IMG/VR virus record: IMGVR_UViG_3300006916_000217
Location: 1-30,658 of that record
Direction: 5' to 3' (one strand)
Length of the DNA stretch: 30,658 nt
DNA from: a virus
Position numbers and translations under genes: made by a program. The notes beneath the pieces are model-generated. The model searched no databases. It was not told where the DNA came from and worked only from the letters and a program-made list of their open reading frames with translations. Positions 10,921 through 19,757 of the stretch are shown here, piece by piece. Every line of letters begins with the position of its first letter. The first letter of the stretch is position 1.

Positions 10921-12336
10921 ATGCCTGATTTTGCATCTCTTAGCCGGCTAGGTAGTATTAACGGCGCACAATTTAACGCCAACTCCGCAGCCGGTAACTA
11001 CGAGCGTGAAAACGCTAATTTTCTGAAAATTTTTAGTGGTGAGGTTCTCACTACGTTCGAGCGTGAGACGGTCTTCAAAGACCTGACCATGAAGCGTTCG
11101 ATTCAATCTGGCCGCTCTGCTAGCTTCCCAATTACAGGTCGTTTCAGCAGCCGCTACCATCGCCCTGGCGATTGGATTACTGGCCAAGGTAACAAAGGAA
11201 TGATCGGTGAAAAGATCATCACCATTGACGATCTTCTGATTGCCGACGCTTCGATCTATGACCTTGACGAGGCCAAACTGCATTGGGATGTGAGGAGCAT
11301 TTACTCGCAGGAATTGGGCCGCGCTCTGGCTCGTGCATACGACCAGCGCCTTGCTCGTACTCTGCTGTCTGCTTCTCAGTCTGACGGTCGTGTTAACGAC
11401 TGGGATGAGAAGACTTTCCAAACCGCAGGCGGTACTGTTAACTCTGTTGCCGCTAACGGCACCGTTACCCTCAGCGAAAACTTTGCAACCGCTGAACTGG
11501 GTAGCTTTGCAGTTGGCACCACCATCTACGGTGAAGACTCCGGTGCTTACGGCATCATCACCACTGCTCCTACTAACGGCGCTGCTACCTTTGTCATCAA
11601 CCCTGTTGGTGCTATCGGTACTGGCTCTAACGCCACCTTCACTGTTGGCGAGCGCCTGTTTGTTATCGGCACTATGCCTGGTGGTACTTCTCTCACCGGT
11701 ATTGACCTGAACGGTGCTGCTGACCGCAACGCCCGTGGCGATCTGATTATCGACAACCTGTACGATGCTTGCCAGGTTCTCGACGAAAAAGATGCTCCTA
11801 AAGAGGGACGTGTGTGCGTTCTTTCGCCAGGCGCATATTATGATGTGCTGTCTTCTGACCGCGCCATCAGCGTTGACTTCAATGGCAACAGTGGCAGCAA
11901 CGGTAGCTTCGGTGAAAACCGTGTGGCTTCTGCTGCTGGCTTCAAGCTGATCACCTCCAACCACTTGGGTGTTAACGCTTACACCAACGGTCAAACCTAC
12001 TCTGGTGTGGCTAACCAAACTGCTACCACCCGTGGTGAGCGTCCTAACTACATCAATGGCCGCGACGGTTCTGATGGTCGTGTTCAGAACGGCACTAACG
12101 ATTACTTCCAGGATGAGCAAGGTAACGATGGTTCCATTGCGAACGCATTTGCCCTGTGCTTCACCAAGGAAGCTGTCGGTACTGTGTCTCTGAAGGACGT
12201 GTCCATGCAGATGACTGGTTCTGAGTACAAAGCCATGACTCAGAGCACCATGATGGTTGCCTCTTACGCTGTGGGCCACGGTGTCCTGCGTCCTGAGTGC
12301 TCCGTCAGCCTGCTGCACGACGGCAATCCCTATTGA
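10921..12336 (+). CDS. gp10: Major capsid protein, T7 gp10-like, enlarged
   Basis: A 471-residue HK97-fold coat protein related to T7 gp10A (345 aa). Shared blocks are FLKIFSGEVLTTFER at 34-48, KIITIDDLLIADASIYDLDEA near 98-118, DVRSIYSQELGRALA near 123-137, LIIDNL/VLSPGAYYDVL near 275-310, and GTVSLKD and SYAVGHGVLRPE near 420-459. About 85-90 extra residues (roughly 165-262) lie between the helix after 140 and the block at 275, and about 30 more in a Gly/Asn/Asp-rich stretch near 353-400. These probably form surface loops or a decoration-like domain. Codon use is heavily biased to C- and G-ending codons (CTG, AAC, ACC), unlike gp16, as expected for the most highly made protein. Confidence 0.95.
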   Translation: MPDFASLSRLGSINGAQFNANSAAGNYERENANFLKIFSGEVLTTFERETVFKDLTMKRSIQSGRSASFPITGRFSSRYHRPGDWITGQGNKGMIGEKIITIDDLLIADASIYDLDEAKLHWDVRSIYSQELGRALARAYDQRLARTLLSASQSDGRVNDWDEKTFQTAGGTVNSVAANGTVTLSENFATAELGSFAVGTTIYGEDSGAYGIITTAPTNGAATFVINPVGAIGTGSNATFTVGERLFVIGTMPGGTSLTGIDLNGAADRNARGDLIIDNLYDACQVLDEKDAPKEGRVCVLSPGAYYDVLSSDRAISVDFNGNSGSNGSFGENRVASAAGFKLITSNHLGVNAYTNGQTYSGVANQTATTRGERPNYINGRDGSDGRVQNGTNDYFQDEQGNDGSIANAFALCFTKEAVGTVSLKDVSMQMTGSEYKAMTQSTMMVASYAVGHGVLRPECSVSLLHDGNPY

Positions 12337-13046: not shown

Positions 13047-16000
13047 TGTCTAGAGAACTTTATAGCCAAGTTATTGGCCCACTTAACAAAGGCGTGAACC
13101 AACAGGCTGACAGTTTTGTGCTGCCAGGCTTTGCAAAAGTTCTTGAAAACGCCAACTGTGACCTTGTGGAAGGTCTTAAAAAACGACTAGGTTCTGTGCC
13201 TCTACGGCAGATTGATAACCTTACACAAAACGCTGGGGGACAAACCCTTACTGCTCCGCTCAAGTGGAATGAAGCTTGGGTGTTTGTTTACAACCGCAGT
13301 ACAGAAGAACGGTTTGTGTTGATGGTTGTTGATGACAGCCGCACTATTGCTAGAACCGGTAACACTACAAACAACTCAAACGTTGTAGCCAGTCTTAATA
13401 GTGCTACTGATGTGTTTGTTGGAGCCACTATTACTGGTACTGGGATCCCAGCTAACACAACTATTTCCAGTATTGAAGGCACAACTATTACGTTAAGTAA
13501 CAACGCAACAGCAACAAACACTGGCACAGCTCTAACTATCACGTCTTCGCTGACGTTTGTTACTGGTGTTTCTAACGTTGAACCAATCACTGGTACGATT
13601 CCGTCAGTGCTGCCTGAAGAGCAAACTTTTACAAACGTTACCACTGCAAACCTAAATTACTTGCGTGGCTCTGGCAGAGCAAAGGATCGACTGCGTGCCA
13701 CGTCTTTCCAAGACTTTGTATTTATTACAAACATTCAGCAGACCGTTGCTTTTGACGCTACTGAAACTCTGACTCGTTTTAACATTTCAGAGATCAGTAA
13801 CGAGTTTCGTCCAACTAGAGCGCAGGTAAACGTCAAACTAGTTGACTACGACAGTATTTATACAGTCCGTATAACGCTTGATAACGGCGATGTAATTATT
13901 GGTAATCACCTTACGCCTTCTCTTACTGATAACAATGGCAACACAAATTTTGTTAGCACAGAAACAATTGCTGCAAAACTGATTAGCAACACAGACACTA
14001 TTTCTGGCTCTACAACAACTGGTAGTTCAACAATTACTAGTGTTAGCTCTGCTGATATTGGAAAGGTACATCAAGGTGAACTAGTTACAGGTTCAAATAT
14101 TCCAACAGGCAGTTTTGTTGGTGATGTTGGTGACACTAGTTTTGAGCTTGTTGACAATGCCGGAGCATCAGTTAACGCAACTGGAAACGGTAGTACTACT
14201 CTGACTCTTGGTGAAGGTCTTGATCAAACAGACATTAACAACGAGCTAAACTTTGAGCGTCAAAACTCACAGATTCTGATTACTTGCGCTAACACAAACC
14301 GGTTTATCCAAAACATCGTCGTGTCTGACGCCAGGGGTAACACCCTGATGGATGGCTTTTCAAACCAAGTTACCAGCATTACAGAGCTGCCTAGTTCTGA
14401 TTGGAACGGTTACATCGTGCTTGTCTCGCCTGATGGCACGTCAAACCAAAGCTCTTACTACCTTCAGTTCAACGCAGAAGGTACAACAACAGATGGCGAC
14501 TACGGTAACGGTGTTTGGGAAGAGGTAGGTAGCTGGGGTACTCCTGGTCTACTTGACGACAACACAATGCCTCATGCGTTTATTTACTACAGAAACGATG
14601 ATGCTCTAGCTCGGTTTACCTTACAACCGTTTAGCGGTACTACTTACACAGACGGCAGCACTAGTTTTGATATTCCTGGTTGGACTACACGGTTGTCTGG
14701 TGATGCAGATGAATTACCGGCTCCAACTTTTGCTGGTGACACAATTAACGACATTGTGTTTTTTAAAAACCGTCTTGGTTTTGTAAGCGGTGAAAACGTC
14801 ATCCTTAGTGAAGCTGGTTCTTACTACAACTTCTGGCAGCAGTCAGCACTGCAAGTCGTAGACAACGACACTATTGACTTGACTGCAGTTAGTAACGACG
14901 TTGCGGTACTAAACTTTGCCTTGCAGCAGCAGGATGAACTTGTTCTGTTCTCTAACGAAAACCAGTTCCGTCTTTACTCAGGCGACAACGTTACGTTTAG
15001 TCCTGAGACAGCTTCTGTGGGTAGGATTAGCTCCATCAGTATGGAAGCAAAAGTCAAACCACAACAAGTTGGTCCTCAAGTCATCTTCCCAGTCAAAGAG
15101 GGTGATTTTACTGGTCTTCATACATTTATCACTACTGACCGTACCGTTGGTATTAACTTGGGTCAAACGGCAGTTATTACAGAGACTGTACCGAAATACA
15201 TCCCCAAAAATATCGACAGTTTGGCTGTAAGCCGTACTGATCAATACCTTGTTGCACTTAGTAATGACGATAAAAACGCACTTTATGTGTACCAATTTTT
15301 CTGGGAAGCTTCTGGCGGTTCTCTAACTAACCGACAGAACGCTTGGTCTAAATGGACGTTCCCTAACAAAGAACTGCACTGGTGCGATTTTGTTGAAGGT
15401 ACTCTTTATACTTTGACTGAGTACGACAACGACGGTACTGCTGAGTATTACCTTGAAGGCATTAACGCTTCTCGACCTCCTCAAGAACCTACCAGCCTGT
15501 TTCTGCTAGATCGCCAGCTGTCCAACTCTATTACTACCAACGCTGGTGCTGTCACTTTTACTTACAACGCAGGAACCAACAAAACAACCGTAAACCTGCC
15601 GTATCGAACTGTTAACGCAAGTCAATTTGTTGTTATTAAACAGGATGCAAGCGATGCAAACGAAGCTGAAAAACGTTGGATCGTGGCTAATAATGTTCCG
15701 GCTGACGTTACTAGTTTCGAGTGCGATAGCGTTGGGGATTTTTCAAGCAGCTCTTGGGTCTTTGGTGAAAAGTATACGTTCACTTTCCGACCTCCGCAGC
15801 TCATGCCTTACAGCCGAACTGCTACTGACAATACTTTTATTGGCAATCGTACTGGAAGGCTTCAGCTTAGGTATATGGATGTCTACTACAACGATGCCCG
15901 TTATTTCAAAGTAGAAGTCACACCAAAATACCGTGACAAGGTTACTTACGAGTTTGACCGTCGTGATCCAATAAACGGAAACATTGTTATTGGTGAGGAA

Positions 16001-16153
16001 GAAGAGTTTGAACAATCAAAGTTCCGCTCACATATCCAAAGCAAGAACGACCAAGTTACAGTAGAAATAGTCAACGATAGCATTGATCAGTCTAAGTTCA
16101 TTGCTATGGAATGGACTGGTTTGTATTTTGATGTTGCGAGGAAGTACGGTTAA
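13046..16153 (+). CDS. gp12: Tail tubular protein B (nozzle), T7 gp12-like
   Basis: A 1035-residue nozzle protein against 794 in T7. Conserved blocks are GPLNKGVNQQADS near the start, FQDFVFITN near 221-229, the TMPHAFIYY region, and INDIVFFKNRLGFVSGENVILSEAG near 570-600. Two Thr/Gly/Ser/Asn-rich beta-type modules account for part of the extra length. One is at about residues 104-168, with TGTGIPANTTISSI-like sequence. The other is at about 317-390, with TGSNIPTGSFVGDV-like sequence. Both have the pattern G-x-x-IP-x-x-T/S followed by a short beta strand and look like diverged copies. They may decorate the nozzle and touch the cell surface. Confidence 0.93.
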   Translation: MSRELYSQVIGPLNKGVNQQADSFVLPGFAKVLENANCDLVEGLKKRLGSVPLRQIDNLTQNAGGQTLTAPLKWNEAWVFVYNRSTEERFVLMVVDDSRTIARTGNTTNNSNVVASLNSATDVFVGATITGTGIPANTTISSIEGTTITLSNNATATNTGTALTITSSLTFVTGVSNVEPITGTIPSVLPEEQTFTNVTTANLNYLRGSGRAKDRLRATSFQDFVFITNIQQTVAFDATETLTRFNISEISNEFRPTRAQVNVKLVDYDSIYTVRITLDNGDVIIGNHLTPSLTDNNGNTNFVSTETIAAKLISNTDTISGSTTTGSSTITSVSSADIGKVHQGELVTGSNIPTGSFVGDVGDTSFELVDNAGASVNATGNGSTTLTLGEGLDQTDINNELNFERQNSQILITCANTNRFIQNIVVSDARGNTLMDGFSNQVTSITELPSSDWNGYIVLVSPDGTSNQSSYYLQFNAEGTTTDGDYGNGVWEEVGSWGTPGLLDDNTMPHAFIYYRNDDALARFTLQPFSGTTYTDGSTSFDIPGWTTRLSGDADELPAPTFAGDTINDIVFFKNRLGFVSGENVILSEAGSYYNFWQQSALQVVDNDTIDLTAVSNDVAVLNFALQQQDELVLFSNENQFRLYSGDNVTFSPETASVGRISSISMEAKVKPQQVGPQVIFPVKEGDFTGLHTFITTDRTVGINLGQTAVITETVPKYIPKNIDSLAVSRTDQYLVALSNDDKNALYVYQFFWEASGGSLTNRQNAWSKWTFPNKELHWCDFVEGTLYTLTEYDNDGTAEYYLEGINASRPPQEPTSLFLLDRQLSNSITTNAGAVTFTYNAGTNKTTVNLPYRTVNASQFVVIKQDASDANEAEKRWIVANNVPADVTSFECDSVGDFSSSSWVFGEKYTFTFRPPQLMPYSRTATDNTFIGNRTGRLQLRYMDVYYNDARYFKVEVTPKYRDKVTYEFDRRDPINGNIVIGEEEEFEQSKFRSHIQSKNDQVTVEIVNDSIDQSKFIAMEWTGLYFDVARKYG
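13355..14215 (+). repeat. Two diverged beta modules inserted in the nozzle gene
   Basis: The protein segments coded at about 13355-13549 and 13994-14215 share the order: N/S/T-rich strand, GxxIPxxT or GxxIPxxS turn, short gap, then a hydrophobic strand and N-A-T/G-rich end. Similarity is clear only at protein level. The span given covers both copies and the nozzle core between them. Confidence 0.5.
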
Positions 16154-16995
16154 TGGCTATTCAAAACTCTCTTCAAAGCATGTTGGCTAGTCCTGGTGCT
16201 GGAGGTGCATTTACATTTGCTACGCAGCTTGGTCAAACAATGACTAAAAAGGGCGCAGCAGATATTGAAAACTGGCGTAAATGGGAATCAGACACTGTTC
16301 GAGCCTATCGAAAAGCTGCTGATACTAACAGGCAAAATTATCGAGCCTATCAAGTTGACCTTCAAAACTGGTTTAGCAAATCTAATTATGTAGAAGAACT
16401 TCGTCAATACGAAGAACTCAAAGCTAAACAAGCAGCTGAGTTTAAAACAGAAACATCTATTGCTGCTACTCGTGATCTTGGTAGAAAACTTGCTTCTATT
16501 GAAGCTCGCTTTTACGAGCAAGAGGCAGCAGACGAAGTTCAACTAGACACTATTCGTTTGCAGTCAATTGCTAACTCAGTTAAAAAGGTTGCTAGCGGTC
16601 AAGTAGGACGCACCGTAGAAAACATTAGAAACACCGCTAACCAGCAATACCTGCAAAACGCTAGCAACCGTCTAATCACTCGTCAGTACAGGATTGCTGA
16701 TAAACTTGACGCTGGTAGGGCTTTCTCTATTGAAGCTCAAAACAAAACAAATTCTGCGCGTCTTTACAATCCAAGACCTTATGCTGATCCTGTTAAACCT
16801 ATGGCACCTTTGGCTGCTCAAGTTTACGGGCCTAGCAAACCAAGTAAAGCTCGGGGTCTGACTTTAGGCGACGTAACAAACGCTGCCGCAGCAGCAATTG
16901 GTGAATATAAATCTATGCTGCCTCCTTCTACTGAACAAAGTGGATCAGGAAGTGATCAGCAAGAAACTACTGAACAAACCGAAACACAGCCATGA
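16153..16995 (+). CDS. gp14: Internal core protein, T7 gp14 position
   Basis: A 280-residue protein (T7 gp14 has 196). The N-terminus is Gly/Ala-rich with possible membrane-active character (residues 8-27). A long helical, coiled-coil region follows to about 190, then a Pro-rich stretch and a Gln/Thr/Glu-rich tail. T7 gp14 is ejected and forms an outer-membrane pore. The call rests on position and general make-up rather than a diagnostic motif. It starts as TAATG over the gp12 stop and overlaps the next gene as ATGA. Confidence 0.78.
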   Translation: MAIQNSLQSMLASPGAGGAFTFATQLGQTMTKKGAADIENWRKWESDTVRAYRKAADTNRQNYRAYQVDLQNWFSKSNYVEELRQYEELKAKQAAEFKTETSIAATRDLGRKLASIEARFYEQEAADEVQLDTIRLQSIANSVKKVASGQVGRTVENIRNTANQQYLQNASNRLITRQYRIADKLDAGRAFSIEAQNKTNSARLYNPRPYADPVKPMAPLAAQVYGPSKPSKARGLTLGDVTNAAAAAIGEYKSMLPPSTEQSGSGSDQQETTEQTETQP

Positions 16996-19757
16996 CCAGC
17001 AGCTTTAACATTCAGCCCCAGCGTCAGCTGCGAGATACGTTTGAGCAGCCTGAACAACGTGCAGAGATCGCTCCACCAGCTCAACCAGAGCAGGTTTCTC
17101 AACAACGTGGTGGTCAGCTTCTAGATTTTACTAGCTACCAACCTGATCTAGAGCTACAAGACAAGGTAAACAGCATTGCAAACCTTGTAGAGACCGGTCA
17201 AGGTCTCATGCGGCAAAACGTCAAAGACCAAGCCGAAAAGGTTGGGTTTCAAGTAGATAAGCTGTTTGATCAAATTAGTCAATACCAGTTAGACACGGTT
17301 GAACTGGGTGAAACGGCACGTCAACTCCGTAAAAAGGGTAGGCCAGACCTTGCTGAGCAGGTAATCAGTACTAACCCTTGGTTTAAGTTTCACTATTACA
17401 ACAAGAAAGCAGAGACTGCTGCTACTAAATCCGTTGTCAACCTTAACGAGTATGTAACTAATAACATGGGGCGTCTTCAGCAGATTGAAGACCCAACAGA
17501 AGTTACATCTGAGCTGGTTAAACAGAACCAAAATTACCTAAAACAGAACTACCCTGACATCCCTGATCGGATGTATTCCGGTTTGGTTGCACCAGCTTTG
17601 GCAAAAGCAATGCCACTGCTGCAGCAAAACATTGCTGAAAAGCGAGCTGAATACAACGTAACGCTGCTTAACGCAGCAGCAAACCAAACGCTTGATGGTG
17701 GTGTTGCTACTTGGATGAGTGGTAAAGCTCCAGGTACTCTTGCTGCTACTCTTCGCAAAGCTCAGCTTGAGTACATGGCTGCAGGTAAAACTGCTATTGA
17801 GTTTGCTAACAACATTCGTACTCCGTTTCTTACTAATCTTCAATTTGATGCTGATAAAAACGGTATAAACGATTTTGAAGAAAACCCAGAATTAAACGGT
17901 TTGCTGTTGAAAGAGCTTAGTAACTTTGATTTGGGCGATGGTCAAGGAATGCTGCTTGATTATAAAGACGCAGAAAACGGCAAATCAATGCGTCAAATTA
18001 TTAGAGAGAATAGAGATACAATTCAAGCCCGAATAGTTAACAAACAATCTATTGCAGATAAACAGGCTCAACTTGAATACAACCAAACTCGACGCGATCT
18101 GCAAACTGCTCTGTCTCTTATTGCACAAAGAGATGGAGATGGAGATGCTTTTGTTCGCGGTTTGCAGGTAGGAGGAGTTAATAAGATTCCTTTTCTTGAT
18201 GAAAACGGACAAATGGTAGAAAAGGATTTATTCATTCCTAGAACTTTTAGCCCGCAAGGATTGTATAAAATTTATACAGATTCTGTAGCTGTACCAGATC
18301 AAAGGCAGCTAGCAGAGGATAAATCTAACTTTGCTTTGGCTTTAACTCAAAAAGACGAAGCAACTCAAAACGAAATTTTAAATAGATACCCGACAGGTAG
18401 TGCAGCTTTTAATAGCCTCGTCCAACTAAAAACAACGGCTCAACAAAACGCAGTTAAGTTTGAAACTAAAATTAACTCCGCTTCAAGTACTCTTGTTGTC
18501 CAAGCGCTAGCAAATCTTGACAAAGCAAAAGAAGACGCTCTAAAAGCTGCAGGCAACAACAATGTAAAGGTTAAAAAAATTCAAGAACGTTATGACGATA
18601 TTTATAGAGACCAATTTAAAACGCTAGTAAAAAAGAGAGCTGGAGACATTATTGAACAGCAAATGCAGGGAGCCACTCGGGCTCAGTTAGAGGATGATGG
18701 GTGGTGGGCACAACTCCAAGAAGACCTAAGAGCTGATTTAGCACAAAATGAATTTTTTAGCACAAATCTTTTTGATCTCACAAATCCAGCGCCAGAAATT
18801 TTTAGGAACATTGAAGAGTACGCTTTTACTACTCGCAATGCTGACACAACCGGAAAACTTACTTCTGTCAAAAAAGCACAGATTGTTTATACGCCAGAGG
18901 AGTTTTTAGCAAAAAACCGTAAAAAGGCTGATTTTGGCCTTTATTACATAAAGGAACCTATGGTAAGTTCCAATACTTTTAACGAAGTAATGGATGTAGC
19001 TATTGGTAAAAAATTAAAGGTAAGTCCTGAATCGTTAAATGAGCTTAAAAACGCAATGGTTATTTTTAAAGAAATGCAGCCAGGTTCTAGTCTTGAAGCT
19101 TTACTTAGAGGGCAAGCCCAGGCAGCAGTGTTTGATTATAGAGAGCCACCAAATATAAAGCAAGGCCTCTCCACACCTAATAACCCAGCTATACAAACAC
19201 TTCAAAAACAAGTTGAGAAACTGATGTCAACAACGACACCAGTAAACACAACCATAGCAAGACGTACCTACGGCCACCCTTTAAATTTTGGTCCAAGGGC
19301 TGATGGAGCAATTGACTTTTATCTTCAAGATAAAAACGGTGAAAATAATGACGTAAACTTTGTGGCTCCTACACAAGTTAAGGTTGTTGATATTGGATTT
19401 CAACCTGGAAAAGGTGGTAACTGGATTTTAGTTGAAGTTTTAGAGGGAATTGGATCTAACGTAGAATCAAAGCACAATTTAAACAAAGGAGATGAAATCT
19501 TCATTGCTCACGCTCGTAGCAGCCAAGCCGGCACTAACGGCTACACCGGCTATGATTGGCCTGTCAAAGTTGGAGACGTTATTTCTGCTGGAAACCCTCT
19601 TGGCCGTCAACACACCACAGACTCTTACAGAAATGATGTAGACGGTGGTACTGGTATGCACCTTCACGTTGAGGTTCGTCGTAACAGAGGAAATATACTT
19701 CAAAGTGACATGGTAAAAATTTACGACACTATTCTTAGTACTGGACTTGCTGACTGA
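16992..19757 (+). CDS. gp15: Internal core protein, gp15 position, with M23-type peptidase domain
   Basis: A 921-residue ejection protein (T7 gp15 has 747). Most is helical and poor in recognisable motifs. The last 160 residues form a lysostaphin/M23-type metallopeptidase domain: NFGPRADGAIDF at 765-776, FIAHA at 838-842 with the His of the YAHL-like motif, a VKVGDVISAGNPLG block, and MHLHVEV at 889-895 with the HxH pair. Such domains cut peptidoglycan cross-bridges. The first zinc-ligand His of the HxxxD motif is Asp 771, with Asp 775 kept, so activity needs testing. The domain would open the cell wall for DNA entry, the job done in T7 by gp16. Overlaps: ATGA with gp14, TGATG with gp16. Confidence 0.87.
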   Translation: MTSSFNIQPQRQLRDTFEQPEQRAEIAPPAQPEQVSQQRGGQLLDFTSYQPDLELQDKVNSIANLVETGQGLMRQNVKDQAEKVGFQVDKLFDQISQYQLDTVELGETARQLRKKGRPDLAEQVISTNPWFKFHYYNKKAETAATKSVVNLNEYVTNNMGRLQQIEDPTEVTSELVKQNQNYLKQNYPDIPDRMYSGLVAPALAKAMPLLQQNIAEKRAEYNVTLLNAAANQTLDGGVATWMSGKAPGTLAATLRKAQLEYMAAGKTAIEFANNIRTPFLTNLQFDADKNGINDFEENPELNGLLLKELSNFDLGDGQGMLLDYKDAENGKSMRQIIRENRDTIQARIVNKQSIADKQAQLEYNQTRRDLQTALSLIAQRDGDGDAFVRGLQVGGVNKIPFLDENGQMVEKDLFIPRTFSPQGLYKIYTDSVAVPDQRQLAEDKSNFALALTQKDEATQNEILNRYPTGSAAFNSLVQLKTTAQQNAVKFETKINSASSTLVVQALANLDKAKEDALKAAGNNNVKVKKIQERYDDIYRDQFKTLVKKRAGDIIEQQMQGATRAQLEDDGWWAQLQEDLRADLAQNEFFSTNLFDLTNPAPEIFRNIEEYAFTTRNADTTGKLTSVKKAQIVYTPEEFLAKNRKKADFGLYYIKEPMVSSNTFNEVMDVAIGKKLKVSPESLNELKNAMVIFKEMQPGSSLEALLRGQAQAAVFDYREPPNIKQGLSTPNNPAIQTLQKQVEKLMSTTTPVNTTIARRTYGHPLNFGPRADGAIDFYLQDKNGENNDVNFVAPTQVKVVDIGFQPGKGGNWILVEVLEGIGSNVESKHNLNKGDEIFIAHARSSQAGTNGYTGYDWPVKVGDVISAGNPLGRQHTTDSYRNDVDGGTGMHLHVEVRRNRGNILQSDMVKIYDTILSTGLAD

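Follow-up and report, generated by a model that had tools for sequence, protein, structure and literature searches.

Gene setting and homologues of the gp15-position protein

The window, by which the whole analysed stretch of 30,658 nucleotides is meant, corresponds to a record of 30.7 kb from an uncultivated virus with an inferred host. Based on Pfam matches, the gene order is portal, scaffold, capsid, tube and nozzle, then the gp14, gp15 and gp16 positions and a T7-type tail fibre. The protein encoded at the gp15 position (Table 1) resembles T7 gp15 in its size class and in its location, which is after the nozzle gene and flanked by gp14- and gp16-type genes. The gp15-position and gp16-position assignments rest on gene position; for gp15-like ejection proteins, size and synteny are the usual basis of matching (PMC8954989). 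Comparison with hhalign detected no sequence similarity to the gp15 of T7 or of P-SSP7, and no PHROGs family was matched by the gp14-, gp15- or gp16-position proteins. The N-terminal part is predicted to be helix-rich: the AlphaFold2 model of residues 1-735 was mostly helical, and too poor for a fold search (pTM 0.26). Presence of the protein in the virion, its ejection, zinc binding, activity and substrate, like the host, are inferred. The reverse strand carries a 456-codon open frame antisense to nearly the whole major capsid gene, which is probably a codon-usage mirror frame.

Table 1 Features of the window discussed in the text (positions in the window; residue numbers refer to the gp15-position protein)
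Feature	Position	Strand	Basis or remark
Open frame antisense to the major capsid gene	10948-12318	-	456 codons
gp14-position gene	16153-16995		Adjoins the gp15-position gene
gp15-position protein, 921 aa	16992-19757	+	ORF; between gp14- and gp16-position genes
M23/LytM-type domain, residues 758-921	19263-19754	+	Sub-threshold Pfam match, hhalign, Foldseek vs PDB, Pfam-positive homologues
His762, probable first zinc ligand, H(x)12D	19275-19277	+	Invariant in the window clade; hhalign; spacing in L139
Asp771, variable loop position, not a conserved ligand	19302-19304	+	D/T/Y/P/N in relatives, never His
Asp775, predicted zinc-ligand Asp of H(x)nD	19314-19316	+	D in 20 of 26 distinct sequences
His840, catalytic-type His	19509-19511	+	Invariant, 26 of 26 distinct domain sequences
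His874	19611-19613	+	Invariant in the 13-member inner clade; canonical Gly in all outer relatives
Asp884	19641-19643	+	Invariant in the inner clade
His890, first His of HxH, catalytic type	19659-19661	+	Invariant, 26 of 26
His892, second His of HxH, predicted zinc ligand	19665-19667	+	Kept in the window group, in L110 and in every outer relative
gp16-position protein, 1980 aa	19757-25699	+	No transglycosylase detected (Pfam, SLT search, hhalign)

The only isolate with a homologue of the whole protein, as found by tblastn in 50,697 phage records, was P-RSP2 (HQ332139), whose PRRG_00027 is 28.8 % identical over 96 % of the length of the window protein. IMG/VR scans with the full gp15-position protein, its domain or the gp16-position protein gave few loci. 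The decisive wide set came from a scan with the nozzle protein (80 loci), and in many of these loci a profile built from the N-terminal part of gp15 detected the gp15 homologue. The gp15-position proteins of an outer clade are homologous to that of the window, as the profile of the N-terminal 735 residues matched them with E values of about 1e-29 to 1e-41. When they were used as tblastn queries against the same 50,697 records, only M23 parts of unrelated phages were added.

The C-terminal domain

The last ~160 residues of the gp15-position protein are an M23/LytM-type domain. In Pfam searches, Peptidase_M23 matched the whole 921-residue protein with E = 0.0046, and the domain alone matched PF01551 with E = 1.6e-4 and 22.2 bits, which is lower than the curated cut-off of 28.7 bits; this match spans profile positions 32-92 only, with the HxxxD half outside it. 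The M23 membership therefore rests on homology and not on the protein's own Pfam score, since the cut-off is passed by homologues: all five outer-clade proteins tested, from other contigs, scored 31.6-37.5 bits.

A profile of the window group (the window with the three distinct homologues nearest to it) was compared by hhalign with an M23 profile built of IMG/VR phage M23 domains and E. coli MepM, which gave a probability of 96.5 %, while 20 column-shuffled controls reached at most 2.4 %. The AlphaFold2 model of the domain, made with seven homologues, was of moderate quality (pTM 0.63, mean pLDDT 64.8) with well predicted core strands. Its best 15 Foldseek matches in the PDB were all M23 proteins (lysostaphin, LytM, EnpA), with E values down to 6.4e-4, and among the best viral fold matches were M23, lysozyme or endopeptidase proteins, including a protein of Arthronema virus TR020 and ORF33 of Pf-WMP4. 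Sequence searches of the PDB with the domain, a close alignment or a wider alignment gave chance matches only. A chance resemblance to M23 was ruled out by the shuffled controls together with the fold search. Besides the LytM beta fold, for which Foldseek and hhalign agree, the domain has the HxH motif of the family (H890 and H892) and the upstream catalytic His (H840). The fusion of an M23-type domain to a gp15-position protein, as proposed in the first-pass annotation, is thus upheld by the Pfam-positive relatives, hhalign and the fold search alike.

Position 771 and the candidate zinc ligands

The first-pass annotation had also read the HxxxD motif of the window protein as DxxxD, with Asp771 at a zinc-ligand site. 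The residues it named, D771, D775, H840, H890 and H892, were all found at their positions when the codons were read in the ORF. The ligand role of residue 771 did not survive the survey of relatives that the annotation had suggested, as the residue changes even in a 93 % identical homologue (L002), which has Thr instead of Asp, and is Tyr in L003-L006, in conserved surroundings. Over 26 distinct domain sequences Asn was found in 18, and Asp, Thr, Tyr and Pro in two each; His was never found. A zinc ion bound by Asp771, Asp775 and His892 would fit the HxxxD register of the letters if gaps were disallowed, and is nevertheless highly improbable, as the two sequences with Tyr keep everything else and His is seen at the position in 0 of 26. 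The Asp-Asp-His metal site was rejected on this pattern of conservation at residue 771. As judged from the alignments, D771 is a variable loop residue and not a zinc ligand, and nothing speaks for an M23 site of the Asp-Asp-His type.

Another residue of the same loop, His762, is most likely the equivalent of the ligand His of the family, with the spacing H(x)12D. In the outer clade the upstream His lies in an HxHS motif that is followed by NRA-V/I-D, and D775, H840, H890 and H892 are kept in 13 of 13 relatives. The spacing is H(x)6D in 11 of the 13, and loop insertions have lengthened it to H(x)8D and H(x)12D in L128 and L139, respectively. When the window group was aligned with the outer group by hhalign, the YGHP of the window (H762) was placed on the invariant HGHS, directly followed by a six-residue gap, and it is this placement, made without motif information, that points to H762. 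An insertion of the same kind, also of six residues, is present in L139, which is closely related to L113. Wherever D775 is kept (20 sequences), a His is found 6-13 residues before it, and the loop His is absent from all four sequences in which both D775 and H892 are replaced by Asn. The exact spacing of the window is conserved only in the window group, and L110, L115 and L106 have their His at other spacings. Spacings of H(x)12D and H(x)7D have been published for M23 enzymes (PMC9662197). The first-pass annotation had named His762 as a residue that might take the ligand place instead of Asp771. This placement comes from the alignment and not from the structure model, in which the loop that carries His762 (residues 760-768) has pLDDT values below 50.

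At position 775 the exceptions are Ser in the P-RSP2 group and Asn in the L137 group, and residue 892 is Phe, Asn or Asp in three sister groups.

The gp16-position protein

It had been suggested that the wall-cutting function moved from gp16, a transglycosylase in T7, to gp15. No SLT domain was found in the gp16-position protein of the window or in the records of relatives that were searched, and T7 gp16, the positive control, was detected with 5.8e-33. Pfam gave no domain match for the gp16-position protein, and a profile comparison with the N-terminus of T7 gp16 by hhalign was negative. In P-SSP7 gp16 the SLT domain was likewise not detected. Apart from M23, Pfam found no other wall-hydrolase domain among the likely genes of the window; lysis genes may lie outside the fragment. 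The proposed move is consistent with these searches, including the one for a transglycosylase in gp16 that could have spoken against it, but as an idea it is not new: swapping of hydrolases between gp16-like and gp15-like proteins has been stated in a review, and gp35 of K1E/K1-5 is a known case of a hydrolase on a gp15-like protein (PMC8954989).

Evolution of the site in related phages

In a tree of the gp15 N-terminal part, from which the domain was excluded, the window falls in a 13-member inner clade with a support of 100/100. Within this clade the full set of candidate residues is found in the window group and in L110. HxH has become HLD in L115 and L106, D775S is combined with H892F in the P-RSP2 group, and D775N with H892N in L135, L137, L143 and L151. 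Three inner groups thus carry three different replacements, which suggests that the losses of the predicted zinc ligands were separate events. With distant degenerate relatives included, the presence of the full set required three changes on the partly unresolved tree, of which at least two are forced by well-supported branches.

In two of the groups predicted to be zinc-less, dN/dS (NG86) of the domain was ~0.19-0.23, compared to 0.33-0.39 elsewhere in the same genes, with few sites; these values indicate that the domains are under purifying selection and are not decaying freely. For the window group, also with few sites, dN/dS of the domain was 0.48-0.61, somewhat higher than that of the N-terminal part (0.30-0.42).

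H840, H874, D884 and H890 are invariant in the 13 sequences of the inner clade (median identity 32 %), while D775 and H892 vary, and H874 and D884 persist even in the groups without zinc ligands. The site of H874 is Gly in 45 of 46 reference M23 rows. In the AlphaFold2 model H874 comes directly after the strand preceding that of H890 and H892.

Some observations were made on individual sequences. In L009 and L011 of the P-RSP2 clade, a new His is present two residues after the lost Asp (ISFHIE); it is probably on the same strand face and could partially replace that Asp. The deposited gp15 gene of P-RSP2 (L001, HQ332139) is frame-broken inside the M23-like domain at 14511-14774, and the gene is intact in the closely related L011, so that either a sequencing error or a mutation of the strain may explain the break. 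Four distant gp15-position proteins of 958-1129 aa (L120, L121, L122 and L154) have an M23-like stretch in which nearly all catalytic residues are changed; they appear more degenerate by eye, ISNLAS at the catalytic His being one example, and most of them have a further C-terminal extension.

Discussion

We consider it reasonably probable that the gp15-position protein of the window is an ejection protein with a C-terminal M23/LytM-type peptidoglycan endopeptidase domain, which has an ordinary zinc site with a long first loop. The zinc would be bound by H762 and D775, as H(x)12D, and by H892, and H840 and H890 would form the water-activating pair, with D771 in the loop. The protein is predicted from these residues to be probably an active endopeptidase. 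After adsorption, it would be ejected together with its gp14- and gp16-like partners. The domain, which is located at the C-terminus of the tunnel protein, may then cut the peptides that cross-link the wall and let the tunnel through. In T7 the N-terminal part of gp16 carries a transglycosylase on the gp15 tunnel (PMC8954989), and by analogy the M23 domain could do the job of that transglycosylase. In the groups without zinc ligands the role of the domain may be limited to binding of the wall or of neighbouring proteins, like that of EnvC, NlpD and SpoIIQ. The first-pass annotation had left two alternatives for the window protein, an unusual Asp-Asp-His site or an inactive enzyme; neither of them was the most probable reading, in which an ordinary site has a long loop between His and Asp.

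The sister groups are an argument against an active enzyme: they stay constrained in spite of the lost ligands, and the activity may be dispensable in the clade. It is somewhat unlikely that the domain of the window is itself a degenerate, non-catalytic LytM-type domain, kept as a wall-binding or as a protein-binding or assembly module of the ejection tunnel. The ligands have been lost in the three inner sister groups and nearly all of them in distant relatives, with purifying selection persisting in two ligand-less groups, and SpoIIQ of B. subtilis, in which the His of HxxxD is Ser, works in a ring-shaped channel (PMC4605598). However, D775, H892, H840, H890 and a loop His are all present in the window protein and in the three distinct relatives closest to it, and this is the set lost in the degenerate groups. 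EnvC, NlpD and SpoIIQ share the LytM fold and the loss of zinc ligands with the sister groups (PMC9662197, PMC4605598), and differ from the window protein, in which the full candidate set is kept.

The invariance of H840, H874 and H890, with D884, when canonical ligands vary, and the replacement of the family's Gly by H874 right after the modelled strand next to that of H890 and H892, would also fit a site that is no longer canonical, in which H840, H874 and H890 bind a metal or ligand at the entrance to the same groove. We regard this as quite improbable, as H874 and D884 may be structural residues of a longer loop before HxH and the canonical set is still present in the window group. It is a doubtful possibility, only slightly less improbable, that in the clade of P-RSP2 and the window the M23 domain as such changed its function, with the metal or ligand site relocated to H840, H874 and H890 (with D884) in a tunnel-associated LytM domain. 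The ordinary zinc site with H762, D775 and H892 remains the reading we prefer for the window protein. It has counterparts in LasA, with H(x)12D, and phi29 gp13, with H(x)7D, which likewise have more than three residues between His and Asp, a catalytic His and HxH (PMC9662197); the window domain shows no specific sequence kinship to either of them, its best fold matches being lysostaphin and LytM.

An M23 domain on an internal protein encoded near the nozzle is already known in Pf-WMP4-like cyanophages, and the window protein is an added member of this set. ORF33 of the freshwater cyanopodovirus Pf-WMP4 (DQ875742) was deposited as 'internal protein with peptidase domain', and the hot-spring relative TC-CHP58 has an 'internal protein-M23-peptidase' (PMC6129581). 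In these two phages, as in the window, the protein is a large internal one, encoded two genes after the nozzle and before a very long gp16-position protein. The M23 domain of ORF33 is in the middle of the protein (629-728), has a canonical HxxxD and scores 63.8 Pfam bits, whereas that of the window is C-terminal, has H(x)12D and scores below the threshold. PRRG_00027 of P-RSP2 and its counterparts in the contigs L009-L011 are the same protein with the same domain as in the window, but with D775 replaced by Ser and H892 by Phe, so that the predicted zinc site is lost, and they have been annotated only as hypothetical. What is additional here, as far as alignments tell, is the three sister groups without zinc ligands and the invariant extra His874 in the clade of the window; a limited literature search found no earlier report of either.

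The present analysis provides a function hypothesis for a large virion protein that is unannotated in P-RSP2-like phages, P-RSP2 being a phage of Prochlorococcus, and removes the Asp-Asp-His M23 site as a false lead. It adds one more clade in which the wall hydrolase is carried by the gp15-like ejection protein instead of the gp16-like one; T7 gp16 carries its hydrolase (SLT), and the window gp16 has no detectable one. Apparently intact and zinc-less versions of one domain form a natural series, in which phage entry by wall cutting could be compared with entry by wall binding.

Two further features were seen in Pf-WMP4. In ORF33 (L181, 24439-27480) the M23 domain is followed by a stretch that by eye resembles lysozyme or transglycosylase (AHETDNTFDP...GLIQF) and had no Pfam match. 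The gp16-position ORF32 (L181, 20060-24439) has an ADP-ribosyltransferase-like C-terminal domain (PF03496, E = 1.1e-9).
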